Shown piece after piece: positions 21,676 through 57,718 of a DNA stretch of 64,000 nucleotides; within the stretch, counting starts at the first letter, position 1, and every line of letters begins with the position of its first letter. Where the stretch lies: contig JAFGES010000095.1 of NCBI GenBank assembly GCA_016931455.1, forward strand, positions 76,487 through 140,486, in the 5' to 3' direction. This DNA comes from Desulfobacterales bacterium. Its GTDB lineage: Bacteria > Desulfobacterota > Desulfobacteria > Desulfobacterales > JAHDSC01. Below the pieces are notes generated by a model that ran no database searches, was not told the DNA's origin, and saw only the letters and a list, made by a program, of their open reading frames with translations. A program made the position numbers and the translations under genes.

Positions 21676-21889
21676 TTAATTGCCTCTTTATTTAATGGGA
21701 ATTTGAATATTCGTATACTGTCGATCGGATTTTTATTTTAATAACTTAAACAATTAGCATGCATAGTATTAAGATTTTAGTTTCATTCCGGTTATTGACT
21801 ATGTATTTCTATTTTGATAATTAATCATAGCTTGGACCTTTTATTTAATTGTTTAATATTTCTGTTAATTTTTCAGCATAAGAATAATT

Positions 21890-23035
21890 ATGGACTCCTT
21901 TTTATCGGAAAAGAATCGAATTGTTCGTCAGTCGGTGCGTGCTTTTTGTGAACGAGAACTAATGCCGATTGCCGGGGAAATTGATAATGAGGCCCGCTTT
22001 CCCTGGGAAGTGGTGGAAAAGATGGGCAAGCTTTGCTACTTTGGAATTCAGGTTCCTAGAACACTTGGCGGCGCTGGTTTGGATTCGGTCAATTATATAA
22101 TTTTAATCGAGGAAATTTCGAGAGCGTGTGCGAGTATCGGACTTTGCGTGACTGTTCATAATAGCGTAGCCGTGTATCCGATTTTAGCTTTTGGTTCGGA
22201 AGAACAAAAACGGAAATGGGTTCCGGCACTTGCTGCCGGTGAAAAGATCGGGGCCTTCTGTTTGACCGAGCCGAATGCCGGATCGGATGCGGCCGGGATC
22301 GAGGCTACAGCTATTCGCGATGATGGTAACCATTATGTCGTCAATGCCAATAAGGTTTTTGTTACCAACGGCGGGATAGCCGACATTTGCTTGTTTTTTG
22401 TGCGAACGGATCCCCGTGCCGGGCGTAGGGGAATCAGTGTAATTGTTGTTGAGCGTGGGACGCCTGGATTTGTTGTGGGAGATCTTGAAGACCTCTGCGG
22501 TATGCGTGCAAATCCCGTTAGTTCGATTCGACTTTACGATTGTCGAGTACCTAAAGAGAATTTATTGGGTGCGGAAGGTGCAGGTCTGAATATCGGGCTC
22601 GCGGCACTGGATACGGGCAGAATGGGAATTGCGGCTCAGGCTGTGGGGATCGCCCAAGCTGCATTGGAAGAAGCCGTTCGGTATGCAAAACAGCGGCGAC
22701 AGTTCGGAGTCGCTATTGCAAAACATCAAGCGGTTCAAATGATGATTGCCGATATGGCCACACAGCTAGACGCGGCTCGATTATTGGTATACCGTGCGGC
22801 TGTTTTACGTGATAAGGGTAAGCCTTTTTCGCAGGCATCGGCAATGGCTAAAAATTACGCTTCCGAGACAGCTTCTAAGGTAACTGATATGGCTGTTCAA
22901 ATTCACGGCGGATATGGTTACTCAAAATCATATCCTGTCGAGCGGTATTACCGCGATGCAAGGGTGACACGAATCTATGAGGGAACGGCTGAAATTCATC
23001 GTATGGTTATTGCCAGAAATACATTAGGGATATAA
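21890..23035 (+). CDS. Acyl-CoA dehydrogenase
   Basis: A 381-residue FAD-dependent acyl-CoA dehydrogenase of the short/medium-chain (butyryl-CoA) type. Signatures: [15 protein letters not shown] near 122-136, the flavin-contacting [16 protein letters not shown] near 265-280, [20 protein letters not shown], and [11 protein letters not shown] near the C-terminus, whose Glu is in the usual catalytic base position. It oxidises acyl-CoA to trans-2-enoyl-CoA, passing electrons to the electron-transfer flavoprotein encoded next. It is first of a three-gene unit with etfB and etfA. Substrate chain length cannot be read from sequence. Confidence 0.92.
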
Positions 23036-23086: not shown

Positions 23087-23863
23087 ATGAAGTTTCATAT
23101 AATTGTGTGCCTCAAATCCGTTATCTTGAGTATGTCGGATAAACCGATCGATCGTTCGCCTGATTCATGCGAATTAAATCCCTTTGATCGCCCGGCGCTC
23201 GAAACAGCGCTAAGGATGAAGGAAAAATACGGCGGTATAGTGACGGCTTTGTCTATGGGACCGGAGAACTGTATGTTTGCCCTCTATGAGGCCATGGCCA
23301 TGGGCGTTGATCAAGGTGTCTTGGTTTGTGATTCGGCTTTTGCCGGAGCAGATACCCTCGCAACCTCCACTACGCTTGCAGCGGCTATCAAAAAGCTTGC
23401 TCCCTTTGATCTGGTTCTTTTCGGGACACGAACAGCCGATAGCGATACCGGTCAGGTAGGGCCACAGACAGCGGTGCTCCTTGATCTACAGTTGGTTACA
23501 GGCGTCCAGTCTATCGAAAATCATGGATCCGTTATTCGTGTGGAGCGCAGCATGGATTCTTTTCGAGAAAAATATGAAATTTTTTTACCCGCTGCTTTGA
23601 CAATTCATCCAAATTCGATACAAGCACGTGATGTCGGGCTTATAGGAATCGAAGTCGCTTTTGAGGACAAAGAAGTTAAAAAATGGAATTTGCTGGATCT
23701 TGGATTATCTTCAGATCGGGTCGGAGAGGCCGGTTCATCTACCCGGGTAAACTCAGTATCACGAGTGGACAAAGAAAGAAAATGTGAGATTCTAACGGGT
23801 ACGAACGAAGATCAGATCGAAGAATTGATAAGACGTTTGGCGGATTCGGGGCTGATTGGATAG
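23087..23863 (+). CDS. etfB: Electron transfer flavoprotein beta subunit
   Basis: A 258-residue EtfB. Typical segments are LNPFDRPALETALRMKEKYG near 30-50, the GTRTADSDTGQVGPQTAVLL AMP/flavin-binding region near 115-135, and the family's C-terminal region ending about residue 255. It forms the ETF heterodimer with the next gene product and accepts electrons from the acyl-CoA dehydrogenase 51 bases upstream. I cannot decide from sequence alone whether the complex is a simple carrier or a bifurcating type. Confidence 0.92.
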   Translation: MKFHIIVCLKSVILSMSDKPIDRSPDSCELNPFDRPALETALRMKEKYGGIVTALSMGPENCMFALYEAMAMGVDQGVLVCDSAFAGADTLATSTTLAAAIKKLAPFDLVLFGTRTADSDTGQVGPQTAVLLDLQLVTGVQSIENHGSVIRVERSMDSFREKYEIFLPAALTIHPNSIQARDVGLIGIEVAFEDKEVKKWNLLDLGLSSDRVGEAGSSTRVNSVSRVDKERKCEILTGTNEDQIEELIRRLADSGLIG

Positions 23864-23909: not shown

Positions 23910-25532
23910 ATGTTAAATCATGCTGAAAAAGAAATATGGGTTTATGGTGATTTGAGAAATGAAAGACTTTTCGACTTTAGTCTTAAAGTTTTGGCTAAAG
24001 CTCGTGAACTGGCTCGGTCGATCTCGGGTAAGGTTGCGGTTGTTTTAATGGGTTCATCAATCGAAAATAAATCCGAGACGCTTTCTATCAGCGGAGGATT
24101 TATTTCAGCTGATGACGCTGCAAAGAATTTTATTTCCCATGGTGCCGACTATGTCTACTTTTTTGATAATTCTTTTTTGGCTGTGCCCCGCCCCGACCTT
24201 TATGCAGCGGTTCTTGCCGACGCGGTTCAGGATCAAGCTCCCCTCCTTGTCCTTTTCCCACTTACGGATTTCGGCCGCGAAACGGCAGCAAGGACTGCAA
24301 GGATGAATAATGCCGGATCCATTGCCGATTGTATGGATCTCAAGATTGTAAATAATAAGGTAGTGGCTGCCTGCCCCTCATGGGGAGGGAAGGTCATGGC
24401 TGAAATTTCTTTTGTGGATCACCAAAAAACCGGATTTGCAACGGTTCAACCCCATGCATTTGAGCCGATCAAGGTTTCGGGTGAACCGGGTATTGTTAAA
24501 AAAATCAAAATCAGTAACTTAAAAGTGCCTCAAGAACTTAAGTTTATCTCAAGTTCACAGGAATCTGCGGAATATCGAAAGCTGGAAGATGCTGATATTG
24601 TAATAGTCGGTGGTGCGGGGTTGGGTAGCGCCGAGGGATTCGGGTTGGTCAGAAATCTGGCGGTTACGTTGGGCGGTCAAGTCGGTGCCACACGCCCGCC
24701 TGTTTTGCAACACTGGGTGGACGAGGAACGATTGATCGGACAAACGGGAAAAACCGTTCGGCCTAAATTGCTGTTTTCCATTGGAACTTCGGGAGCCACG
24801 CAGTATACGGCAGGTATTATGGAGGCCCAAACGATTGTTGTTATCAACCGTGACCCGAATGCACCGATTTTTCAAGTTGCCGATTTGGGAATTGTGGCCG
24901 ATGCGAAAACCTTTTTACCTCAACTTATCGCCAAGGCCAAACGCGTAGTGATGCGCAAAATGGCAGACGTTTTGGGTGAAAATAAAACCGCCAAGGGCAA
25001 GGATGAATTCGGCATACAAATCCGAAAGCTTCGAGAATCCCATAATTGGTCCATCGAAAATTTGGCAAAAGCCACCGGACAGCCCCCGGAATTTATTGAG
25101 CAAGTCGAAAGTAACCGGATTGTTCCACCGGTGAGTTTTCTATTGGGGCTCGCGCGAGCCCTGGATGTCGATCCGGGCACTTTCCTTCGCGATGAAGAAA
25201 AAACAATGATTCAGGATCAACGGACAAAAGCGTTTATCAAGCGAACCCAAAACTATTCCTATCAGACGCTTACACCGGGTGCTGAGAATCAAAAATTGCG
25301 GGCTTTCATGGTGACTATTGAATCCAAACAGGACCACAAGCCGGTGGCTTACAAGCACGAGGGCGAGGAGTTTGTCTTTGTGATGGAAGGCGATCTTGAA
25401 CTAACACTGGGTAGAAAAAAGCATCAGCTTAAAGCGGGTGAATCGATTCATTTTAATTCCGAAGTTCCACATAAACTCAAAAGTCTTTCCGACGAACCGA
25501 CTCGATGCCTGGTGGTTCTGGATACACCATGA
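23910..25532 (+). CDS. etfA: Electron transfer flavoprotein alpha subunit fused to an XRE-HTH/cupin regulator
   Basis: A 540-residue protein made of two things usually separate. Residues 1-345 are EtfA: N-terminal domain, then the FAD domain with GQTGKTVRPKLLF, SGATQYTAGI and INRDPNAPIFQVADLGIVAD. After a linker (346-366), residues 367-425 are an XRE-type helix-turn-helix (IQIRKLRESHNWSIENLAKA), and 450-540 a cupin domain (KHEGEEFVFVMEGDLELTLG, HFNSEVPHKL). The frame is continuous. Either the regulator is covalently attached to the flavoprotein, or an internal start such as the ATGs at 24951 or 24960 also makes it separately. XRE-cupin regulators usually sense a metabolite and bind DNA. Confidence 0.85.
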   Translation: MLNHAEKEIWVYGDLRNERLFDFSLKVLAKARELARSISGKVAVVLMGSSIENKSETLSISGGFISADDAAKNFISHGADYVYFFDNSFLAVPRPDLYAAVLADAVQDQAPLLVLFPLTDFGRETAARTARMNNAGSIADCMDLKIVNNKVVAACPSWGGKVMAEISFVDHQKTGFATVQPHAFEPIKVSGEPGIVKKIKISNLKVPQELKFISSSQESAEYRKLEDADIVIVGGAGLGSAEGFGLVRNLAVTLGGQVGATRPPVLQHWVDEERLIGQTGKTVRPKLLFSIGTSGATQYTAGIMEAQTIVVINRDPNAPIFQVADLGIVADAKTFLPQLIAKAKRVVMRKMADVLGENKTAKGKDEFGIQIRKLRESHNWSIENLAKATGQPPEFIEQVESNRIVPPVSFLLGLARALDVDPGTFLRDEEKTMIQDQRTKAFIKRTQNYSYQTLTPGAENQKLRAFMVTIESKQDHKPVAYKHEGEEFVFVMEGDLELTLGRKKHQLKAGESIHFNSEVPHKLKSLSDEPTRCLVVLDTP

Positions 25533-45678: not shown

Positions 45679-46710
45679 TTATCTGTGTTTCAACTCAGCT
45701 TCAAGGCGTTTAAGACCCGTTTCAATAGAAATCCGAGGTAAATAGCCCAAATCTTTGCAAGCTGCACTGATATCGAACCAGTGTGCGGTCGAAAGCTCAT
45801 TGGCGACAAAGCGGGTCATCGGCGGCTCACTATTGATTTGCAATGTTTTATAAACACATTCAAAGATAGCGCCTATGAGCCATGCGGCCTTTTTTGGTAT
45901 GGATCGCTTCACCGGTTCAAGACCGGCTGCCGCCAATATACGGTTAATCATCTCCCATAGCGCTATCGGCTCTCCTTGGCTAATAAAATAGATATTACCG
46001 GAAAGCTCAGGGTTTTGATCTAATTTTTCGTCAGCTAATATATGTGCGTAGGCTGCATTATCAATATAAGTCGTGTCGACAAGATTGTTGCCGCTACCGA
46101 CTTTAAACAATTTTTTCGATCTTGCGATGATTCTTGGAACGAGATGATTATCTTTAGGCCCCCATATCAAATGAGGCCTTAGGATTATGGTTAATAAACC
46201 ACGACGTGCAGCCACGATCACTTTCTGTTCGGCAAGGGCTTTGGTTTGAGGATAGTAAGCGTGAAACCGGTCAGGATAAGGTACGGTTTCATTTATGTTT
46301 TCCATATCAGTCGCATTGAAAATGACACTAGGCGAGCTGGTATAAATCAATTTTGAAATTTTGTGCATACGGCAGGCGGAAATGATATTTTTAGTTCCGA
46401 TCACATTGGTCCGGTAGAAGTCTTCATATCGTCCCCAGACGCCGGGTTTTGCGGCTACATGAAAAATTGTGTCGATACCGGCGCATGCGTTGCCGACTGC
46501 CTGTTTATCACTGAGGTCGCCTTGAATCTGTTCAACGCCGATGACATCAAGTTCCTGATAATAATTGCGGGAAAAGCTGCGGATAGCCTCGCCTTTTTCA
46601 GCAAGGAGTTTAATGATGCTGCCTCCTAAAAATCCGCCGCCTCCGGTAACAAGAACTTTGCGCTGCCTGGGTTTAGACTTAAGCCTTATTTGAGTTGCCG
46701 CGTCGCCCAT
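45679..46710 (-). CDS. oleD: OleD: NADPH-dependent 2-alkyl-3-ketoacid reductase
   Basis: A 343-residue short-chain dehydrogenase of the 3-beta-HSD/epimerase type. The nucleotide-binding motif is VTGGGGFLGG (residues 21-30) and the catalytic pair is Tyr153 and Lys157 (YYPQTK). In the Ole pathway it reduces the 2-alkyl-3-keto acid made by OleA to the 2-alkyl-3-hydroxy acid. Its start overlaps the end of oleC by 25 bases, so the two are translationally linked. The identity is supported mostly by the complete oleABCD neighbourhood. Confidence 0.88.
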   Translation of the reverse strand: MGDAATQIRLKSKPRQRKVLVTGGGGFLGGSIIKLLAEKGEAIRSFSRNYYQELDVIGVEQIQGDLSDKQAVGNACAGIDTIFHVAAKPGVWGRYEDFYRTNVIGTKNIISACRMHKISKLIYTSSPSVIFNATDMENINETVPYPDRFHAYYPQTKALAEQKVIVAARRGLLTIILRPHLIWGPKDNHLVPRIIARSKKLFKVGSGNNLVDTTYIDNAAYAHILADEKLDQNPELSGNIYFISQGEPIALWEMINRILAAAGLEPVKRSIPKKAAWLIGAIFECVYKTLQINSEPPMTRFVANELSTAHWFDISAACKDLGYLPRISIETGLKRLEAELKHR

Positions 46711-48359
46711 TTTGATAGTTTCTCGCGAAAAATTTTCGAGTTATGCCGTATATCGACCGGAAAGGATTTGTGAAAGAGGATCGTCTTGATATCCTTTGTT
46801 AGGACGTTATTTTTTGCAAGCTCCAGAAGCTCAGCTTGGATCGGTTTCGTATTCTTATCCCGAATGCCGTTTTTCAACTCGATAATCATTACCGGCTTTT
46901 GCTCGTTTATAGGACCGATTCCCACAAGAGCACTACGGGAAACGTTGGGGTGGTTATTGAAAACGGCCTCACAAGGTATGGTAAAAAGCTGCTTATCGGC
47001 AGTCGTAACGCGATGACTTTTGCGGCCGCAAAACCAGATCCGGCCTTTTTTGTCCATCCAACCCAAATCCCCCATTCGATGCCGGAAGGTATCGCCATCT
47101 TTAATTTTATTTAGGGCGTCGGCTTGTGGATTTTTGAAGTATCGCTGGGTGACGATATCTCCCTTGACGACGATTTCACCGATTTCGCCCTTTGGAACTT
47201 CAAGGTCATCGGACCATTGTTCGATGGCAAGGTCACTTATTTTAATGATACGTACATCAATTCCGGTGATCGGGCGACCTACACAGTTTCCATATCCTTG
47301 TTCGCTATATCTTCGGGTTTCGCTCAAAATTTTGTTGCCGGTGATGGAAAGGACGGGCATTGCCTCAGTAGCACCATAAGGCGTATGAATCTCAGCCGGT
47401 TTGCGCAACATCGCGGCAAACTGCTCAATGTTGGATGGTAAAACAGGTGCACCCGCCGAAATAACCCTTTTCAAAGACGGCAATTTAATACCCTTTTGCT
47501 TGCCGTAGGCGCCAACGCGACTTAGCAAGGCCGGAGAAGCGAACATGTTTGTAACACCTTGGTCTATAATGGCTTCTATGATTTTGACGGGATTTACCAA
47601 TGCCGGTTTTGTGGGATTCATATCCGGTATGACGGCTGTCATTCCCAGGGCAGGGTCAAAAAGTGCAAAGAGCGGAAAAGTCGGTAGATCGATTTCACCG
47701 ATTTCGATACCGAAGTGAGTCTTTAGATGTCGGATCTGGGAATCAAATATACCGTGTGTGTAGACGGCTCCCCGGGCGGGACCTGTACTGCCGGTTGTAA
47801 AAAGGATCGCTGCGGTTTCATTTGCCTTTGTTTTTACAGCTGAATACGGCTTCCAGGGCACGAGACGAATCTGATTCATTGTCAGGCCACCCCAGAACCA
47901 ACGCTTACCCACTGTTATCCAAACTTTTACGGTTTGAAAAAATTTAGGATAAAGGGTTCGAATGACATGTGCGGGAGGAATGCCGATAAACGCTTCAGGC
48001 TGACTTTCTTTGAAACAACGGATCATTCGGCGAATTCCCATCCCCGGATCAACCACTACGGGTATCGCACCGATTTTAAAAAGTGCGAATGTTAAGGCGA
48101 AAAACTCGAGACCGGGTTTAACCATTAAAATGGTTCGACAACCGCGGTTAATACCCGCTTTGAATAAACCATGGGCCAACCGGTCGGATTCCTGCTCAAG
48201 TTGTAAAAAAGTTAGATGTGCATAGGCAACTCGGCCGTTATTATCGCGACCAGCCGGATAAACAACGGCGCGTTGATATGGCTGGACGCCGGCCATTTTT
48301 TTTAGATGAGAGGAAACATTTACGAAAAGGCTATTTTGATCAGGGTCGATAATTGTCAT
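46686..48359 (-). CDS. oleC: OleC: beta-lactone synthetase (AMP-dependent synthetase family)
   Basis: A 557-residue ANL-superfamily enzyme. The ATP loop is ILFTTGSTGPARGAVYTHG near 192-210, and YGATEAMPVLS and the VTTADKQLF C-terminal hinge region are visible. In OleC this fold activates the 2-alkyl-3-hydroxy acid with ATP, and internal attack forms a cis-beta-lactone and AMP. It overlaps oleD by 25 bases and lies 173 bases after oleB. Without the cluster it would be annotated as a fatty-acid-CoA ligase; the neighbourhood makes OleC the better call. Confidence 0.88.
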   Translation of the reverse strand: MTIIDPDQNSLFVNVSSHLKKMAGVQPYQRAVVYPAGRDNNGRVAYAHLTFLQLEQESDRLAHGLFKAGINRGCRTILMVKPGLEFFALTFALFKIGAIPVVVDPGMGIRRMIRCFKESQPEAFIGIPPAHVIRTLYPKFFQTVKVWITVGKRWFWGGLTMNQIRLVPWKPYSAVKTKANETAAILFTTGSTGPARGAVYTHGIFDSQIRHLKTHFGIEIGEIDLPTFPLFALFDPALGMTAVIPDMNPTKPALVNPVKIIEAIIDQGVTNMFASPALLSRVGAYGKQKGIKLPSLKRVISAGAPVLPSNIEQFAAMLRKPAEIHTPYGATEAMPVLSITGNKILSETRRYSEQGYGNCVGRPITGIDVRIIKISDLAIEQWSDDLEVPKGEIGEIVVKGDIVTQRYFKNPQADALNKIKDGDTFRHRMGDLGWMDKKGRIWFCGRKSHRVTTADKQLFTIPCEAVFNNHPNVSRSALVGIGPINEQKPVMIIELKNGIRDKNTKPIQAELLELAKNNVLTKDIKTILFHKSFPVDIRHNSKIFREKLSKWATRQLK

Positions 48360-48532
48360 GGACCATTTTGCATTTTGGTATTGATGAATTTCGACTATTT
48401 TATCCTTAGATATTTTTAAATTATAGCACCTGTTGTGTTATTTCGTCAACCCATCAACATCTAAGGGTGTCTAAAATAGTAAACTCTCCCATCTGGTTTG
48501 TTTTTTTGGTATGATTTAATAAATCATATCTT

Positions 48533-49459
48533 TCATATCGGCGTGTTTTGCAGGAAATCTTTTAAAAGTATTTTGATTTTTTCCGGCTCATCTTCAAGAA
48601 CATAATGACCTGCATTTGGGAAGATATGAGTCTGCGCGTTGGGAAATCGACGTTGCCATTCGGCAAGGTAGTCGGCATCAAAAACAAAGTCGTGTTGTCC
48701 CCAACAGATGAGCATAGGCTTATCTGTCAGCTTTGATAAATTGTCATCCACGTATTTTACCAAACTGTAACTGGGATCCTTGGCATTTAGCGGAATATCT
48801 TGAACGAATTTGAGGGTTGCTATTCGATTCTTCCAGCAATTGTAAGGGGCGGTTAAACCCGATCGGACAGTGTTGGACAGCCTCTTGTAAGATGCCGTCA
48901 AAACCGCTGCATACGCAAAAAGATTAAAACCCAGAACAGCCACCGTAGCCAAAGGCCGAATGGTGCGTATGATTTGCAAACGCAAAGGCAATTTTTTATG
49001 ATTAGGGGGTAAAAAGGCAGCCGTATTCAGTAAGACAATCCGGCCGATTTTTTCCGGGTGCCTTAGCGCGTAGGCCATCCCGATAATTCCACCCCAGTCA
49101 TGCAGAACCAGAGTGATTTTTTGTTTTAATTTCAGATAATCAAGCAAGGCTTCAAGATCGTCGATGCGACTTTTGAGCCTGAAGTCATATTCTGTTGTAT
49201 CGGGTTTGTCCGATAGACCACAGCCGATATGATCCGGTGCAATGATGCGGTAATGATCAGACAGACCTTTAATGAGTTCTCGGAAATAAAAAGACCAAGT
49301 CGGGTTTCCATGAACCATGATAATAGGTTCACCAATGCCTTCATCGATAAAGTGGTATCTTAAACCGTTTAAATTCAAGTAGTGAGACCTGAATGGATAG
49401 ATTCGGCGAAACCGGAATTCATCAACGGGTTTGTTTTTTTTTTTACAGGATTTTACCAT
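48533..49459 (-). CDS. oleB: OleB: alpha/beta hydrolase, beta-lactone decarboxylase
   Basis: A 308-residue alpha/beta hydrolase related to haloalkane dehalogenases. HGNPTWSFYFRELI marks the oxyanion region, VLHDWGGIIGMAYA carries nucleophile Asp121, and NAGHYVLEDEP carries His285. An Asp nucleophile rather than Ser fits OleB, which decarboxylates the beta-lactone to a cis-olefin and CO2. It overlaps the end of oleA by 7 bases. Confidence 0.88.
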   Translation of the reverse strand: MVKSCKKKNKPVDEFRFRRIYPFRSHYLNLNGLRYHFIDEGIGEPIIMVHGNPTWSFYFRELIKGLSDHYRIIAPDHIGCGLSDKPDTTEYDFRLKSRIDDLEALLDYLKLKQKITLVLHDWGGIIGMAYALRHPEKIGRIVLLNTAAFLPPNHKKLPLRLQIIRTIRPLATVAVLGFNLFAYAAVLTASYKRLSNTVRSGLTAPYNCWKNRIATLKFVQDIPLNAKDPSYSLVKYVDDNLSKLTDKPMLICWGQHDFVFDADYLAEWQRRFPNAQTHIFPNAGHYVLEDEPEKIKILLKDFLQNTPI

Positions 49460-50493
49460 TTTATTCCCAGCATGAGGCAGTTAAGGCCGCTGCCGATTCC
49501 AAGGAAACCCACCTCATCATTTGCTCTGAGAAAATCACGTTCGGATGCAATCGCAGCGGTGATGGGAAGTGATACGGAGCCGATATTGCCTAAAAATTTA
49601 AATGTCGTAAAATCTTTTTCTTCCGCCACCCCGATGGACTCAAGTATGATTTTACGATGGGTCGCACCGACCTGGTGACAAATAATTTTATCCGGCTTGT
49701 CATCCGGCCATGAGAGCTCTTTTTTAAACTCCTTAAACGTTTGGGTCCCCAAGGCGACACCGTTTTGCAATACGCCGACGGATTCGGTTTGAATCAGTTG
49801 CATTTCACCGGCTGATATGCCGGTGCCCAACCCCCACGTACAGAGCTGATGATATTCCACGGCGTTTTTAACAACGCCTCCCAAGATACGGTGACCACTG
49901 TCTGCAATGGATGCAGATGTCAACAAAATCGCAACAGCACCGCATCCACCGGTCAGTGTAGCGACGGTATTTTTAAAGGTATTCATATCCTTTGTTTCAA
50001 GTAGATGCCGAATGGTAAGCTCAATAACTTGCCGAGAAGATTCGCAGGATACCAGAAGACCTGCTTGAATTTGGCCCAACTCAATCGCATTGGCAACCTG
50101 AAGCATGGCATTTAAAACCCCCAGACAGGCATTGGAAACATCATAGACCTGAGTTGCAGGGCGCAAACCCAAACCGTGGGCAACCGCACAAGCGGTTGCA
50201 GGCTCTAAATAATCCTTACAGATACCACAATAGATCAGCATATCGATATCTTCAGGTGAAACACTCGCATGCTCCAATGCCTTTTGACCGGCACAGACGG
50301 CACCTTCAGACATCTTATAATCCGGGTCCCAGAACCGACGTTCCCGAATTCCGGTCAATGCTTCAAGCTGGCCTTTTTGTAGATGAAGAGCCTTGTAAAG
50401 GGGCTCCAGTTGCTTCTCAATGTCCTCTGATGTCACCACATTCGGAGCCAATTCGTGTCCAAAGGAATCAATATAAACTTTTGAATATAACAT
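49453..50493 (-). CDS. oleA: OleA: head-to-head acyl-CoA condensing thiolase
   Basis: A 346-residue thiolase-fold enzyme similar to FabH. Active residues are Cys123 (SNACLG), His273 (CHQVGATHR) and Asn303 (LGNIGSVSLP). Glu97 in LEPATACAV is at the spacing of the OleA-specific base contributed by the partner subunit (26 residues before the Cys). It performs a non-decarboxylative Claisen condensation of two acyl thioesters to a 2-alkyl-3-keto acid, the committed step. It lies 109 bases after the Pfa-type synthase gene, so polyunsaturated acyl chains are the likely substrate by inference. Confidence 0.9.
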   Translation of the reverse strand: MLYSKVYIDSFGHELAPNVVTSEDIEKQLEPLYKALHLQKGQLEALTGIRERRFWDPDYKMSEGAVCAGQKALEHASVSPEDIDMLIYCGICKDYLEPATACAVAHGLGLRPATQVYDVSNACLGVLNAMLQVANAIELGQIQAGLLVSCESSRQVIELTIRHLLETKDMNTFKNTVATLTGGCGAVAILLTSASIADSGHRILGGVVKNAVEYHQLCTWGLGTGISAGEMQLIQTESVGVLQNGVALGTQTFKEFKKELSWPDDKPDKIICHQVGATHRKIILESIGVAEEKDFTTFKFLGNIGSVSLPITAAIASERDFLRANDEVGFLGIGSGLNCLMLGIKW

Positions 50494-50602
50494 AGATTCT
50501 ACTGCTGATTTCTCCCCTGAAAGTAAAATTTATTTCTTTTAAAACGCCGGTGCTGCTTTTCATGAAAGTTGCAGCATCGTGACGATTTTAACCTCTATCG
50601 AT

Positions 50603-53600
50603 CTATGATTGAGTCAAAGGAACCAAGCAAAGACCGAAATTTTCCATTTTATAAATATAGAGGCCGTCTACTTTCAAGTATCCACTTGCCGTAATGGCAG
50701 GTACAGGATCTTGTTGAATTTGAGTTACGACAGCTTCGACCTCAATTTTTTTACTTGTGGGAATAATTTGTCCTCGAAAGATCCAATGATGCGGTTGTTG
50801 AGTCATGACTGCAAATCGGTGACTATTCGTTAGGTGTTTCCAACGCTTCAGCGCCATGAATTTGATCAGCTGCATAAAAGATTCTATTCCCAGAGAGCCC
50901 GGGCAGACCGGGTCCTGATAAAAGTGCGCCTTAAAAAACCATTCATCGGGATCAACCATTTTAACTCCACGAATAAAACCCAGACCCTCAGGTCCCCCAT
51001 CGGGCGCATAAATCTCAATTCGGTCGATCATCCGTAAAGCCTTAGACGGCATAGCCAAAGTATGCTCCTGTTTGAAAACCGGTTTACCGAAAGGCTCTTC
51101 CGGCAATAACGGTGACTCATCGGTAAAGGTGTAAGAAGAACCGGTTTTAAGTTCTTCAGAGTCCGGTACATATACATGCCGATCTGCCTCACGAAGCCCC
51201 ACCTGTTGAGCCATCGTCTTCCTTGAAAAAAAACCGAAAGTTGTATTACCTTTATAAATTATTTTATCAGCTTGCAAGACTTTCATATCAAATTGTTCAA
51301 TAATCATGTTGCCGGCTTCGGAAACCTGGTTCATCCGGGTAAGCATGCGAAGAGTACCCGCATTCGGAAGAACTTCATGGTAAAGAACCGAATTTCCGCC
51401 TAGGTTTCTGAATTGGAGATCTTCTTGGCTTTTAAGTGAAGATCCCAAATAGGCTGCCAGCCATCCACAAGGTTGAAATGCAATTTCAAGCAGCATGCAA
51501 AACGGCAGTGATGATGTGCGATTCGCATAAAAATACCAGGCATTCGGAGGTACATCGTATTCCGCTTCGATCCATCCGCCGGGTTTCAACACCCAGGGTT
51601 TAGGCTCGATGTGCGTGATTCGGTCGATAAACAGATAAGGCGGCCCAGGAAGACGGGCGACAAACCGGTTTCCGTCAAATATTTTATAAGGTTCACCAAA
51701 GGCTTCCGACGGTTTTCCAACGGCAAACGCCAACAATTTGTTGCGATCAAACATAACCTCTTTGGGAGCAGATTTTTTTGGAGTTTGGTTTTGCCTTTTT
51801 CGGGTCCATAAAGATTCGATCTCCTCCCGCGTAACGCCGGTCATTTTTATGGTCATATCTTTAAACAATACGATACGATGATCATCGGCATACATATGGG
51901 CATCCGCAATGGCATAGGGCTCGGGTTGATATCCGATTTCTTTCAGTTCCACTTCATAAACCACATGACGGGTATCGGGTGTGACCGGTCCCCGGCACTT
52001 AAGCTTGCTTGCAACTTCCTCCAAGGGTTCATAGCAAACACCGGGTTTGTCCGTCACCCAGCCCATGCGCTGGATAAATACCCTTAAGGTATGATTGCAG
52101 CATTCATACATCAACGTTCCGGGCATGACCGGATCGTCCATAAAATGGCAGGTCAAAAACCAGTCATCCGGATGGATATCGGCCTCAGCGCGAATGATAC
52201 CCAGTCCATAGCGCCCCCCCGTTGGATCAAGAGATAGAATCCGATCGATGAGTTTCATTCTGCCACCGGGCAGCCTCAATGAATCGGCGAGTTTGATTCC
52301 TTCAAATAATTCTCCGAAACATTGTGCGAGATTTCCATGCCGAAGGGCTTCAATGGCTTCATCGGAATAACTTTCGATTGACATCGGTACCAGATCCGGC
52401 CGTTCCGAGGGTTTTCGGCTTATTAAAGGCCGGGTATCTTCCTCGGTCAAAATGATACCACCGGAATTTCGAACTTCTTCCGGAGTAAAAAAACCTGCAC
52501 ATCCGTTACGCATAGTAATCAGATGGCTGTTGCCGATGTGGCCTTCGAAGTGAAAAAAGAAAAGATAGGTATTACCTTGACGTATAAATTTTTCGATTTG
52601 AATCTCATAACGGATGGTATCACCCGGTCGCGGCAGACCTCGATGAAATTTGACGGTAGCATCTAATAGCCGATAAGTTCTTTTCCCCTTAACAGCCAAA
52701 TCAATGCCCAGATAAGCGCAGAGAAACAAATCTGCTTGACCCGCTTCAACTGATATACAGACAGGTGCACGATCAGCATCCAAATACCAGGATCCGGGTA
52801 AAACATCATGCTCGGTGACCACTCGGCCCGAACCCAGGGAACCTTTTTCACCTTCCACCGTAAGGATTCTGTCAACCAGCATAAGGGGTTCATCCGGCAG
52901 TCGGACCCGCACTGCATAAGTGTCCACCACTGCGAATTCAGGGCCCAATACTTTGGCAACCGAACCGACGGCAAATTCCAGACACATGTCACGCCCAAAA
53001 ACGGGTTTGGGTTCCGGCTCCGAGACGATGGGTTCTATATCCTGATTACCGATAATGGTTTCAAGGAGTTGGTTTTGCAATGCAAAAGTTTTTGCAAAAG
53101 ATTGGGTCAGATCCGTTGAAAACTTTAAAAAGGATTGATGGGCCTCAGAAGTAGCCTCAATATTTTGGTCTAAAGAGTTTAAAATCTCAAGAAAAGCATT
53201 AGGCTGTTGTATGGTATCTTGAGGCTTTATTTTTGACCTTGGATTATTCGATTTCGGTTCTAAGACTTTTATTTGTGTCTTCGAATCTTGCCGGTGATGG
53301 GAATTTGCTATTTGGGTCGTTTTTTGAGGCAAAGTGAAAACCGGTGCTTTCCCGCCGATATAAACCGTAACCTTAAGGCCTATTTTTTCCTCGGGCTTAT
53401 GAATAATTTCCAAAGGATAAGCATTCTTACCATAAATTTGAGTAAGATTAACCGGCACACGGGCAGCAATCAGTGAACCGAGAAATTTAAGGGTGGTAAG
53501 GTAATCGTCTTCACCTCGAACACAGGCGGAAACGGCGATATGCGGTTTTGAATATAGGATCTTACTGATCATTCGAGTGCAGGATGCGTGCGGCCCCATT

Positions 53601-56600
53601 TCCAGAAAAATTCGAATACCGTCTTCATATGCCTGTTTGATAACAGCGGTGAAATCAAAGCCGTAAAGTGCTTGTCGAAGAATCGAAGAAGCGGCGTTTT
53701 GACTGTTAAGCTCATAGGTTTTGCATAGAGCGCAGCTATAGAATTGGATTCCCTCCGGCACTGTTGTAGGAAAAATATGCAGATTTTTATAAGATTCTGC
53801 GATTGGCATTGCGGCTTTACAATGAACAGTAACAACTCCTTCTAGAAAGACCGCCTCACAGCCAAGCTCCTTTATGGCTGCCTCTACTTCATGTTTTCGG
53901 CCGCCGATGACACACTCATGGGGCGTGTTCACGATCAAAAGCCCGGTGGTGGAAAATTTGTTAATCACCCGGTGTACGATATTAGCCGCCCGATTAACCG
54001 CTGCAACACACCAGTTGACATCTTCCGATGCCGGCACGTCCCAAATTTTACGGGCGGCAAGACACGGACCGGATAGCTGCGTATGAAACAGATCGGTCGC
54101 AAGCATTCGTTGCAGCATTTCGCCGCGATCGGGCCATGCGCCCATGGCAAACAATCCTGCCGATTCGCCCAAGCTGTATCCGATAACAGCCGATGGTTTT
54201 AAATCGAAATTCCTGACGAGGTTTGCCACCACCCCACCGTGAGCCACCTGCCCAAAAATCATGTTCAGAGGATCAGCGATGATTTCAGAATGTGCTTCTA
54301 TTTCCCATCCCGGTTCCCAGTTCACTCTCCAGGGGGTATAGCAGTGCGGGAGCAGTTGCGTTTTTAATTGCAAGGTTTCCGCATCCATTTTGCGGAGAAT
54401 TTCCGGCCATTGGATACCGATTCCTCGGCCCATTCCGACATAATGATTTCCGGAACCGGGAAAAACAAATGCGATTTTGCCGTGATATTCCTGAACCTCG
54501 GAGCAATAACTGATGCCGCCGGCACCATTCATTTTTTTGGAAGTATCGGATAAAACGATGTTTTTAGCATCAATGGTCCATTTTTGGAGTTTTTCAAAAT
54601 TATCGGCAACAATGGATAGCGCATATTTTTTTTCATGATTTAATGGGTGTTTCAGATGCCAGTTATGGGCGCAAAATTCTATATTTTTGCCTGTTGTATA
54701 ATGTTCTCCGGTATGTCGTTCAAGGGCCGTAAGGCCTTCTATCAGAGCATTTTTACTATTTCCTTCCACAACAAAAAGGCCTCCGGAATTAAAGCCCAAA
54801 GGCTTTTGCCGCTCCCTTGCAACCTTTTTTGAGATCGGGTGGGTAGGACTATAGTCAACATCTTCCAGAATCACATGCATACAATTGCCGTCGGAAGTCA
54901 TAGACCCGACACAAGACCTGCGGGGCCCGTTTTTTCGGTCTCGGAGCCAGTATTGGGGGTATGCCGGTATGTGGAATCGGCCTTTTTGCCAAATATCGGA
55001 CTTTGGGCGTTTAAAATTTTTTAGCGGTGGAATGATTTCTTGGTACAGGCAAAGACTGGTTTTTATAATGGAAGCAATCCCGGCGGCAGCACCGGTGTGC
55101 CCGATATTCGGTTTTACGCTTCCGACAGCACAGGCTTGCTGTTTAGAATTGAATTGATCCGTGAAAAATTCATACAGAGCTGTTTCTTCCACGCTGTCTT
55201 CTAAAGAATCTGCGCTGCCGTGGGTTTCAAAATAGCTGATCGAAGCTGGAGAGATTGCGGCTTCGTCAATACACCGTCTCAGGGAAAGCATGTAGACATC
55301 TTTTGAAGGAAAAGGGGTTTTAATACTTCCCCCGCTTGCATTTCCGATCCCCTTAATAATCGCGTATATTCTATCTCCGTCTTTTTGGGCCTGGTCCAGT
55401 CGTTTAATGATCAATGCCGCCGCTCCTTCCCCCGGAAGAGTTCCATCGGCTGAATGATCAAAAGGGCGAATTTCGTTTTGTTTTGAAAAAGATCGAAATT
55501 GATTGAATGCAATGATATTGCGGATATCTCCTACAAGATCAATCGCGCCGATTAGGACGGTATCCACTTCATTTTGCTGTAAAGACCTTACCCCGATTTC
55601 AAGGGCTTTGAGACCGGATGTTTCTTCGCCGGAAACCACAAAGCTAGGTCCCCCGAAGCGAAATTCCCGTGCAATTCGACTTGCAATCAATCCTCCTAAA
55701 GCACCTAATGTGCGTGTTGCGGTAAGGGGCGGACTGCATGCGTCCTGAAGGGTGGTAAGCCAAGCAGCTGTTTCATTTTTATCGAGATCGAGACTGAATT
55801 TTTTTTTCCATACTTCAATGTGATTATGTAGATTCCATCGAAGATGAAAGTTGTTGGCCTCAAAGTCATAGCCCATGCCGATGATAACGCCCATCCGAGG
55901 ACGTTCTTTTCTAAGGGGAAGTCCTGCATCCTGCATGGCTTTGGCGGCAACTTTCAGCATCAACAGATGCTGAGGGAGAATGTCCGGAATTTCATTAGGG
56001 GGAATATGAAATTCGTCGATTTGCAGGACGATTTGATTCATAAAACCGCCGCTGAGATTCGGGGATTCCATGTACCTGCGGGCAATATCTTCACAACCTT
56101 TCCAGCGGTCCCGGGGCCGTTTCCCAATGGTTGTATCACCCTTGAAAACAGTTTCCTGAAAATCGCGTAGTGATGAAAGTGAGCCGAAAACCGCTTCCAT
56201 CCCCACAATGGCAATGGGAACCTGTTTTTCCGCCTGATTATGGTTGGACGATAACGACGGATTGTCCTTGAATGCATGTTCAACAGTGGGCTTCGGGCGT
56301 TGAATTCCGGAGGATAAAGATTGGATTTTTTTCCTTTTCGGATACCATTCTTCAAAAAGCAGGTGACCGTTGGTGCCTCCGAAACCAAATGCACTGACTG
56401 CGGCGCGCAATGGAAGGTTATCGGTCTTGCGAATCCATTCCGTAGCTTCTGTCTGTACTCTGAAAGGGCTGTCATTTAGGGCACTTTTGGGAGGTGCTTT
56501 CTTAAAGTGCAGGGAAGGCGGTAATAGTTTAAAATTTAATGCCAATAATGTTTTTATCATTCCGGCTGCACCGGCAGCCGTTAAAAGATGGCCGATCATT

Positions 56601-57718
56601 GATTTAACGGAACCAATAGCGCATGGCTTCTCATGACAGTCGCACTCTTTCCAGAATGATTTTAAACTGTTAATTTCCGTTTGATCGCCGATCGGAGTTC
56701 CGGTGCCGTGGCATTCCACCAGATCAACATCAGCGGGCGACCATCCGGCAGATGCATAGGCGCTTCGCATGGCGCGAATTTGGCCTTCACTGTCCGGGGC
56801 TAGCAGATTGCTGCGCATATCATTGGAAATTCCAATGCCTCGGATAACTCCATAAATTGTGTCGTCTGCCTGCAGGGCATCTTCCAACCGTTTGAGAACA
56901 AGTATTCCGGCACCTTCACCCACCACTAGGCCATCGGCGCTTTCGTCAAAGGGTGCACATCGGCCGGAGGGTGACAACGCCATAAGCTGGCTGAAACCAA
57001 TTTGTGTGTAAAGGCATTCAGGTCGTGAGACACCGCCGGCCAACATCATATCCGTCCGACGAAGCTGCAGCTGATCACAGGCAAGCTTTACCGCATAAAG
57101 CGATGATGCACAGGCGGCATCCAGCGTAAAACTTCCACCGCCCAGTCCCAGGCTTTGAGCCAGAATAGCGGCCGGAAGACCGGTCACTTTAGCTGATAGG
57201 CATTGTCGGCGTGTCAGAAGATTGTATTTATTCCGATCGATATGGCGATTGGAATCAATATAAAGTTTTTCTTCAAAAGATCTTCCCAATATCTCTCTCG
57301 TGATTTTGGACGAGGCATCCGTGGGAAGGGCGATGGCAGCAAGTATAACACCTGTGCGCTCTTTATTTAATGTCGAAGTTCCGACACTTGACAATGCCGA
57401 TCTTCCGGTATGCAGCACGATATGATAAAGTGGATCGAGATCCTTAAGTAGGTTCTCGTCAATATCAAAGCCTTTAAGATTCGATTGAACCGATTTGAGT
57501 ATGTCTGTGGATATGAGGCAGGCCCGTTTCGAAAAAGCCTTGTCCGGTGCAGGCCTTGGTTCATGCATCAATTCCGGTGAGGCAATCCATCTGTTCCGGG
57601 GTACATCAACCGTTGAATCGACTTTATTGATAATGTTTTGCCAGAAGATGTTAAGGTCGGCAGCTCCGGGAAATAACCCGGCCATTCCAACCACGGCAAT
57701 TGGTGGTCTTTTTTTCAT
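50603..57718 (-). CDS. Pfa-type polyunsaturated fatty acid/polyketide megasynthase (KS-CLF-AT-DH-DH)
   Basis: A 2371-residue multidomain protein. KS1 (about 1-460): Cys203 in LDAACASS, HGTGTPIGD, IGHLLTAAGAAGM. A second KS-like domain (about 495-970) lacks the Cys, with Glu699 in its place (VVSGEETSG), so it is a chain-length-factor-like partner. AT (about 1085-1420): GYSLGESAG with Ser1182. After a linker come four hot-dog units forming two double-hot-dog dehydratases: His1858 (HFMDDPVMPG) and His2265 (HFYQDPVCPG) are intact; the first and third units are degenerate. There is no ACP, KR or ER. PfaC normally has KS-CLF-DH-DH; here a PfaB-like AT is inserted. The ACP-bearing PfaA and reductase PfaD must be elsewhere. 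Confidence 0.92.
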   Translation of the reverse strand: MKKRPPIAVVGMAGLFPGAADLNIFWQNIINKVDSTVDVPRNRWIASPELMHEPRPAPDKAFSKRACLISTDILKSVQSNLKGFDIDENLLKDLDPLYHIVLHTGRSALSSVGTSTLNKERTGVILAAIALPTDASSKITREILGRSFEEKLYIDSNRHIDRNKYNLLTRRQCLSAKVTGLPAAILAQSLGLGGGSFTLDAACASSLYAVKLACDQLQLRRTDMMLAGGVSRPECLYTQIGFSQLMALSPSGRCAPFDESADGLVVGEGAGILVLKRLEDALQADDTIYGVIRGIGISNDMRSNLLAPDSEGQIRAMRSAYASAGWSPADVDLVECHGTGTPIGDQTEINSLKSFWKECDCHEKPCAIGSVKSMIGHLLTAAGAAGMIKTLLALNFKLLPPSLHFKKAPPKSALNDSPFRVQTEATEWIRKTDNLPLRAAVSAFGFGGTNGHLLFEEWYPKRKKIQSLSSGIQRPKPTVEHAFKDNPSLSSNHNQAEKQVPIAIVGMEAVFGSLSSLRDFQETVFKGDTTIGKRPRDRWKGCEDIARRYMESPNLSGGFMNQIVLQIDEFHIPPNEIPDILPQHLLMLKVAAKAMQDAGLPLRKERPRMGVIIGMGYDFEANNFHLRWNLHNHIEVWKKKFSLDLDKNETAAWLTTLQDACSPPLTATRTLGALGGLIASRIAREFRFGGPSFVVSGEETSGLKALEIGVRSLQQNEVDTVLIGAIDLVGDIRNIIAFNQFRSFSKQNEIRPFDHSADGTLPGEGAAALIIKRLDQAQKDGDRIYAIIKGIGNASGGSIKTPFPSKDVYMLSLRRCIDEAAISPASISYFETHGSADSLEDSVEETALYEFFTDQFNSKQQACAVGSVKPNIGHTGAAAGIASIIKTSLCLYQEIIPPLKNFKRPKSDIWQKGRFHIPAYPQYWLRDRKNGPRRSCVGSMTSDGNCMHVILEDVDYSPTHPISKKVARERQKPLGFNSGGLFVVEGNSKNALIEGLTALERHTGEHYTTGKNIEFCAHNWHLKHPLNHEKKYALSIVADNFEKLQKWTIDAKNIVLSDTSKKMNGAGGISYCSEVQEYHGKIAFVFPGSGNHYVGMGRGIGIQWPEILRKMDAETLQLKTQLLPHCYTPWRVNWEPGWEIEAHSEIIADPLNMIFGQVAHGGVVANLVRNFDLKPSAVIGYSLGESAGLFAMGAWPDRGEMLQRMLATDLFHTQLSGPCLAARKIWDVPASEDVNWCVAAVNRAANIVHRVINKFSTTGLLIVNTPHECVIGGRKHEVEAAIKELGCEAVFLEGVVTVHCKAAMPIAESYKNLHIFPTTVPEGIQFYSCALCKTYELNSQNAASSILRQALYGFDFTAVIKQAYEDGIRIFLEMGPHASCTRMISKILYSKPHIAVSACVRGEDDYLTTLKFLGSLIAARVPVNLTQIYGKNAYPLEIIHKPEEKIGLKVTVYIGGKAPVFTLPQKTTQIANSHHRQDSKTQIKVLEPKSNNPRSKIKPQDTIQQPNAFLEILNSLDQNIEATSEAHQSFLKFSTDLTQSFAKTFALQNQLLETIIGNQDIEPIVSEPEPKPVFGRDMCLEFAVGSVAKVLGPEFAVVDTYAVRVRLPDEPLMLVDRILTVEGEKGSLGSGRVVTEHDVLPGSWYLDADRAPVCISVEAGQADLFLCAYLGIDLAVKGKRTYRLLDATVKFHRGLPRPGDTIRYEIQIEKFIRQGNTYLFFFHFEGHIGNSHLITMRNGCAGFFTPEEVRNSGGIILTEEDTRPLISRKPSERPDLVPMSIESYSDEAIEALRHGNLAQCFGELFEGIKLADSLRLPGGRMKLIDRILSLDPTGGRYGLGIIRAEADIHPDDWFLTCHFMDDPVMPGTLMYECCNHTLRVFIQRMGWVTDKPGVCYEPLEEVASKLKCRGPVTPDTRHVVYEVELKEIGYQPEPYAIADAHMYADDHRIVLFKDMTIKMTGVTREEIESLWTRKRQNQTPKKSAPKEVMFDRNKLLAFAVGKPSEAFGEPYKIFDGNRFVARLPGPPYLFIDRITHIEPKPWVLKPGGWIEAEYDVPPNAWYFYANRTSSLPFCMLLEIAFQPCGWLAAYLGSSLKSQEDLQFRNLGGNSVLYHEVLPNAGTLRMLTRMNQVSEAGNMIIEQFDMKVLQADKIIYKGNTTFGFFSRKTMAQQVGLREADRHVYVPDSEELKTGSSYTFTDESPLLPEEPFGKPVFKQEHTLAMPSKALRMIDRIEIYAPDGGPEGLGFIRGVKMVDPDEWFFKAHFYQDPVCPGSLGIESFMQLIKFMALKRWKHLTNSHRFAVMTQQPHHWIFRGQIIPTSKKIEVEAVVTQIQQDPVPAITASGYLKVDGLYIYKMENFGLCLVPLTQS

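Follow-up and report, generated by a model that had tools for sequence, protein, structure and literature searches.

A gene in the window, as we call the whole 64,000-nucleotide stretch analysed here from a Desulfobacterales bacterium (assembly GCA_016931455.1), encodes an electron transfer flavoprotein (ETF) alpha subunit, EtfA, whose chain continues into an XRE helix-turn-helix (HTH) and a cupin domain. This fusion is real and is shared by many sulfate-reducing bacteria. On balance, we consider it probable that the protein acts both as the dedicated ETF of its acyl-CoA dehydrogenase and as a regulator, most likely of its own operon, as a PutA-like "trigger" flavoprotein. ETFs take up the electrons released by acyl-CoA dehydrogenases. 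Anaerobes oxidizing fatty acids and hydrocarbons possess many ETFs, with partners and control that are mostly uncharacterized. Each half of the fusion is known already, and the covalent combination has no description in the literature searched: no publication on an ETF/XRE/cupin fusion was found in a search that lay outside most subscription journals.

Domain organization and structural models

The features of the gene and its surroundings are listed in Table 1. The reading frame is open across the junction near 24945-25001, and four Pfam domains lie in one 540-residue chain, each scoring above its curated cut-off. The first part belongs to EtfA by its ETF and ETF_alpha domains and by the etfB partner gene, and the second part has the XRE HTH followed by Cupin_2 that defines XRE-cupin regulators, as seen in both Pfam and cupin fold matches. 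A sequence-only reading of this DNA had proposed that a complete EtfA of about residues 1-345 runs without a stop into the two further domains; both its limit and the read-through agree with the Pfam boundaries and the uninterrupted frame. The source genome has four EtfA genes, and this is the only fused one.

Table 1. Features of the fusion gene and its operon, with positions in the window
Feature	Position	Strand	Evidence or remark
Promoter-like element TTGACT-17 nt-TAATTA, with TG before the second hexamer	21795..21823	+	comparative
Acyl-CoA dehydrogenase, short-chain/acryloyl-CoA-reductase-like, first gene of the unit	21890..23035	+	Pfam/NCBIfam
EtfB with DSDTGQVG motif	23087..23863	+	Pfam ETF
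EtfA-XRE-cupin fusion gene	23910..25532	+	ATG start, 540 aa, no internal stop
ETF N-terminal domain, residues 10-191	23937..24482	+	Pfam ETF, 95.1 bits (cut-off 26.7)
EtfA FAD-binding domain core, residues 224-303	24579..24818	+	Pfam ETF_alpha, 95.2 bits (cut-off 27)
GQTGKTVRP and SGATQY motifs	within 24579..24818 (FAD-binding domain core)	+	
Tyr299 codon, in place of the His of the SGAxQH motif	24804..24806	+	alignments
Variable linker, residues 346-364	24945..25001	+	column entropy, alignment, start scan
XRE helix-turn-helix, residues 366-423	25005..25178	+	HTH_31/HTH_3, 35.7/33.9 bits, above cut-offs
Recognition helix region TGQxPEFIxQVE	within 25005..25178 (XRE helix-turn-helix)	+	
Cupin_2 domain, residues 467-536	25308..25517	+	Pfam, 60.9 bits; fold matches 6b8w_A, 1y9q

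An AlphaFold2 model of the full-length fusion reached a mean pLDDT of 79.1 and a pTM of 0.48, a low value that leaves the placement of the two halves relative to each other unpredicted. The EtfA part of the model matches the bifurcating EtfA 4kpu_A (328 residues aligned, Z 29.0, rmsd 3.2), and the cupin part matches the cupins of the XRE regulators 6b8w_A (Z 15.9) and 1y9q (Z 14.8). When the XRE-cupin part was modelled alone (pLDDT 74.4), 1y9q ranked first in Foldseek, directly followed by the HTH-cupin epoxidase HppE.

Distribution and evolution of the fusion

A homologue search, the check that the sequence-only reading had proposed for its fusion, recovered the same architecture in full-length proteins sharing 38-67% identity with the window protein. 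At a threshold of E <= 1e-90, the protein was matched in 52 of the 389 sampled genomes of the order (23 of 150 genera), with alignments spanning from residue 9 or earlier to residue 507 or later in 49 of them. All matches in a class-level draw fell inside the same order, and a phylum-level draw added 19 matching genomes outside it, 18 with the fusion and one without. In a scan of 84,980 named species, the fusion turned up in Desulfosarcina widdelii and D. alkanivorans, both with complete chromosomes; further carriers included Desulfatibacillum alkenivorans, strain NaphS2, Desulfatitalea alkaliphila, Desulfocicer vacuolatum, and Desulfamplus magnetovallimortis. Among the best 80 of 352 relatives, most loci came from Desulfobacterota or from metagenome-assembled genomes (MAGs) of unclassified "Deltaproteobacteria", and a few MAGs bore other phylum labels, which may be misassigned. 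As this view is that of the best 80, a thin spread of the fusion beyond the phylum is possible. A plasmid search returned matches to parts of the query only, none covering more than 80% of it.

Most of the fused proteins group in a single supported clade of the EtfA tree; the proteins of three loci (L106-L108) are placed elsewhere, but one clade of all fused EtfAs is still compatible with the data (AU p 0.092). These three are divergent fused proteins, with 35-45% identity in each part and Phe at position 299, and may either have branched off early or have arisen by a second fusion. Locus L105 (7047-8105) has the same operon and an EtfA of the fused subfamily, of 352 residues, followed by no XRE-cupin; nothing cupin-like was detected in the 118 bases between this gene and the next. 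Since this unfused EtfA nests inside the fused clade, it points to a secondary loss of the XRE-cupin, and the regulator would be dispensable there. An unrelated EtfAB pair follows the L105 operon on the other strand.

The flavin site of the fused EtfAs carries an unusual residue. The Arg of the GATR motif (R262) and GQTGK are conserved, and the His of SGAxQH is replaced by Tyr or Phe throughout the fused clade. Among the fused proteins checked, position 299 is Phe in L106-L108, L169, and L171 and Tyr in all others, as compared with His in unfused EtfAs of the same phylum. In human ETF, this His (alpha-His286) lies at the O2/N1 edge of the flavin and helps to stabilize the anionic semiquinone. 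A literature search on this flavin-contact His yielded no paper. The change of His to Tyr could alter or weaken the flavin chemistry.

Operon organization and upstream region

The fused gene is the third of a three-gene unit: in 97 of the 106 fused loci with enough sequence, it is immediately preceded, in the same orientation, by genes for an acyl-CoA dehydrogenase and EtfB. Some contigs appear twice in this count because two collections were used. No other neighbour family recurred in at least four loci within 7 kb of the fused genes, and together with the conservation of the unit this suggests that the three genes are self-contained. For the acyl-CoA dehydrogenase, the top NCBIfam model is acryloyl-CoA reductase, with a score below the cut-off of that model, and the nearest solved structure is 5ol2_C, the Bcd of the bifurcating Bcd-Etf complex of C. 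difficile. Its YEGT motif, which holds the catalytic Glu, is kept in 38 of 39 neighbouring acyl-CoA dehydrogenases. EtfB has its top PDB matches among bifurcating EtfBs (5ol2_B, 6fah_B, and 7koe_A), so that both subunits have bifurcating ETFs as top matches in what is a comparison of nearest relatives.

A promoter-like element lies some 70-95 nt before the start of the acyl-CoA dehydrogenase gene; several relatives have it ahead of the unit too, and a strict promoter scan did not pick it up. Motif sampling upstream of the unit gave a sigma-70-like promoter as the sole shared signal (11.4 bits vs 9.8-10.0 in shuffled sequences), and the shared motif, being explained by the promoter, was rejected as an operator. 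Inverted repeats upstream of the unit were not enriched either, occurring in 35 of 53 loci against a shuffle mean of 31.9. The palindrome TTCAATTTGAA occurs some 115-135 nt ahead of the acyl-CoA dehydrogenase gene in L145, L155, L156, and L179; shared by these four Desulfosarcina-type loci only, it is a possible operator within one group.

Elsewhere in the window, on the reverse strand (45679-57718), an oleABCD-like set, made up of OleD-, OleC-, and OleA-like families and a haloalkane-dehalogenase-like OleB candidate, adjoins a polyunsaturated synthase of 2371 aa with PfaA/PfaB/FabA domains. The two together look like a pathway for long-chain polyunsaturated olefins in a Desulfobacterota genome.

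Conservation of the XRE-cupin half and its stand-alone relatives

Mean column entropy was 1.02 bits in the cupin, 1.04 in the FAD domain (residues 224-345), and 1.44 in the HTH, compared with 2.02 in the ETF N-domain, the least conserved folded part, and 2.55 in the linker. By this measure, the cupin appears as conserved as the FAD domain, and the low entropy of XRE and cupin argues that the regulator half is maintained, with no decay. Residues invariant in 40 of 40 fused proteins are R375, A386, and E400 of the HTH and R445, Y449, Y451, F466, H476, K477, Y481, H483, E486, E487, and H521 of the cupin and its preceding helix. The recognition helix region is likewise kept within the fused clade (T389, G390, Q391, P393, E394, F395, I396, and E400).

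Stand-alone XRE-cupins are common in the order and share about 42-49% identity with the fused XRE-cupin over its whole length. At most of the loci read, an acyl-CoA dehydrogenase gene adjoins, usually with genes for 3-hydroxyacyl-CoA dehydrogenase and thiolase on the other side, the neighbours in these thl-hbd-XRE-cupin-acyl-CoA dehydrogenase clusters having been named from their sequences. The source genome itself has one such cluster (L198). Its XRE-cupin (6800-7351 of L198, G000:C42), like those of L191-L208, is likely an uncharacterized regulator of butyrate-type beta-oxidation. Stand-alone and fused forms fall into separate clades (support 100/99), for which the program flagged long branches. 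They have in common the H/E/E/H, Tyr, and His residues of the pocket, and the recognition helix differs, so the simplest reading would be a shared acyl-CoA-metabolism signal with different DNA targets.

Proposed function and relation to known systems

What the sequences establish comprises the domains, the conservation of fusion and operon, the conserved cupin pocket and HTH, and the unusual flavin-site residue. In the mechanism proposed, the first ~345 residues would form a heterodimer with the neighbouring EtfB, and the resulting dedicated ETF would take electrons from the acyl-CoA dehydrogenase encoded by the first gene of the unit. The C-terminal XRE-cupin would be a DNA-binding regulator that binds a small molecule or metal and most likely acts on its own operon (autoregulation), with a cupin ligand, a metal, or the flavin state as candidate inputs. 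The amount of dehydrogenase and ETF would then track acyl-CoA pathway supply and, possibly, the redox or docking state of the flavin as well. A more specific and considerably more tentative idea is that the attached XRE-cupin binds or leaves DNA according to whether the FAD domain is reduced or docked, with the Tyr/Phe as part of the tuning, so that such coupling would allow electron back-pressure in acyl-CoA oxidation to be read at the ETF itself. The sequence-only reading had suggested that acyl-CoA oxidation might be tied to gene control; the link to oxidation has gained from the dedicated dehydrogenase and EtfB in the unit, whereas gene control is something that we infer, no operator having been found upstream of the unit.

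Several known systems resemble parts of this arrangement. The bifurcating EtfAs of ETF/butyryl-CoA dehydrogenase systems (4kpu of A. fermentans and 5ol2 of C. difficile) and of caffeyl-CoA reductase (6fah) have the same fold, FAD-domain motifs, and operon partners (EtfB and acyl-CoA dehydrogenase) and are the top sequence and structure matches of the fused EtfA. Unlike them, the fusion adds a C-terminal XRE-cupin and has Tyr/Phe for the SGAxQH His, and bifurcation is suggested for it by relatedness only. PuuR-like XRE-cupin regulators (1y9q and 6b8w) likewise consist of an HTH and then a Cupin_2 domain whose pocket residues are conserved; in contrast to them, the protein is fused to EtfA and scores 40.8 bits with the PuuR model, against a cut-off of 211. 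The stand-alone XRE-cupins described above share the pocket and the kind of neighbour but are unfused, belong to a separate clade, and have another recognition helix. Trifunctional PutA, a flavoenzyme with a ribbon-helix-helix DNA-binding domain, acts as repressor of its own genes and alternates between this DNA-bound form and a membrane-bound enzyme (PMC5293562). As in PutA, a redox flavoprotein and a DNA-binding domain are present in one chain (PMC5293562), but an ETF carries electrons rather than dehydrogenating a substrate, and the regulator of the fusion is C-terminal with a sensor domain of its own. Pfam and NCBIfam searches of the fusion gave no match to proline dehydrogenase or ribbon-helix-helix families; the protein could therefore only work like PutA and is not a PutA.

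Alternative explanations

That a sequencing or assembly error merged two genes might be suspected from the 133 contigs of the source assembly, but the fusion recurs in independent assemblies, the two complete Desulfosarcina chromosomes among them, and the chance of such an artefact is negligible. The same architecture on independent DNA in dozens of genera excludes a hidden stop or frameshift, including the stop near 24950-25010 that the sequence-only reading had named as a possible flaw, and the homologues in the order sample and in named isolates rule out sequencing error as the source of the fusion. The other alternative raised there, an internal start yielding a separate regulator, belongs with a broader explanation in which EtfA and XRE-cupin end up as two proteins through a start at M348 or M352 or through proteolysis of the linker. 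The window gene does have in-frame ATG codons for both residues near the linker, and the linker, which is variable, is probably exposed. However, such starts lack conservation: in five of the 40 fused genes examined the linker has no ATG, GTG, or TTG, in several more it has TTG only, and the frame stays open over the linker in dozens of genera despite its varying length. A linker start that has at least a weak match to Shine-Dalgarno occurs in six of 40 genes, a comparison of little power since the assigned starts match in 11 of 41 only. With its internal start thus weakened, a two-protein outcome strikes us as improbable.

Two further explanations accept the single chain and assign its C-terminal half another role. 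XRE-cupins and cupins often dimerize, and the XRE-cupin might have ceased to be transcriptional and have become a module for oligomerization or docking, which would build an ETF dimer or tie the ETF to the acyl-CoA dehydrogenase or a membrane acceptor. This dimerizing habit, the negative operator search, and the one relative (L105) that does without the XRE-cupin all speak for it, but a pure tether would have no need of the XRE signature and the recognition helix region that the fused clade has kept, and we rate it as unlikely. Less likely still is a cupin that works as a metal-dependent enzyme or as an Fe(II) redox or oxygen sensor, through the triad H483-x3-E487...H521, instead of sensing a ligand derived from acyl-CoA. 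HppE uses an H/E/H triad of this kind. The invariance of the three residues in all 40 fused proteins and the rank of HppE directly after 1y9q are in keeping with such a role; however, the cupin matches the XRE regulators 6b8w and 1y9q better than HppE, and the whole-length rmsd of 9-12 A to HppE means that only single domains match.

Implications

We know of no ETF that acts as a regulator. If a dedicated ETF that also regulates its own operon is the correct reading, this conserved protein, with sensor and DNA-binding domains of its own, would be the first example known to us, and it would offer a direct way to study how beta-oxidation capacity is adjusted to electron flow in sulfate reducers. 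Desulfosarcina widdelii and Desulfatibacillum alkenivorans are among the culturable species in which this reading can be tested.
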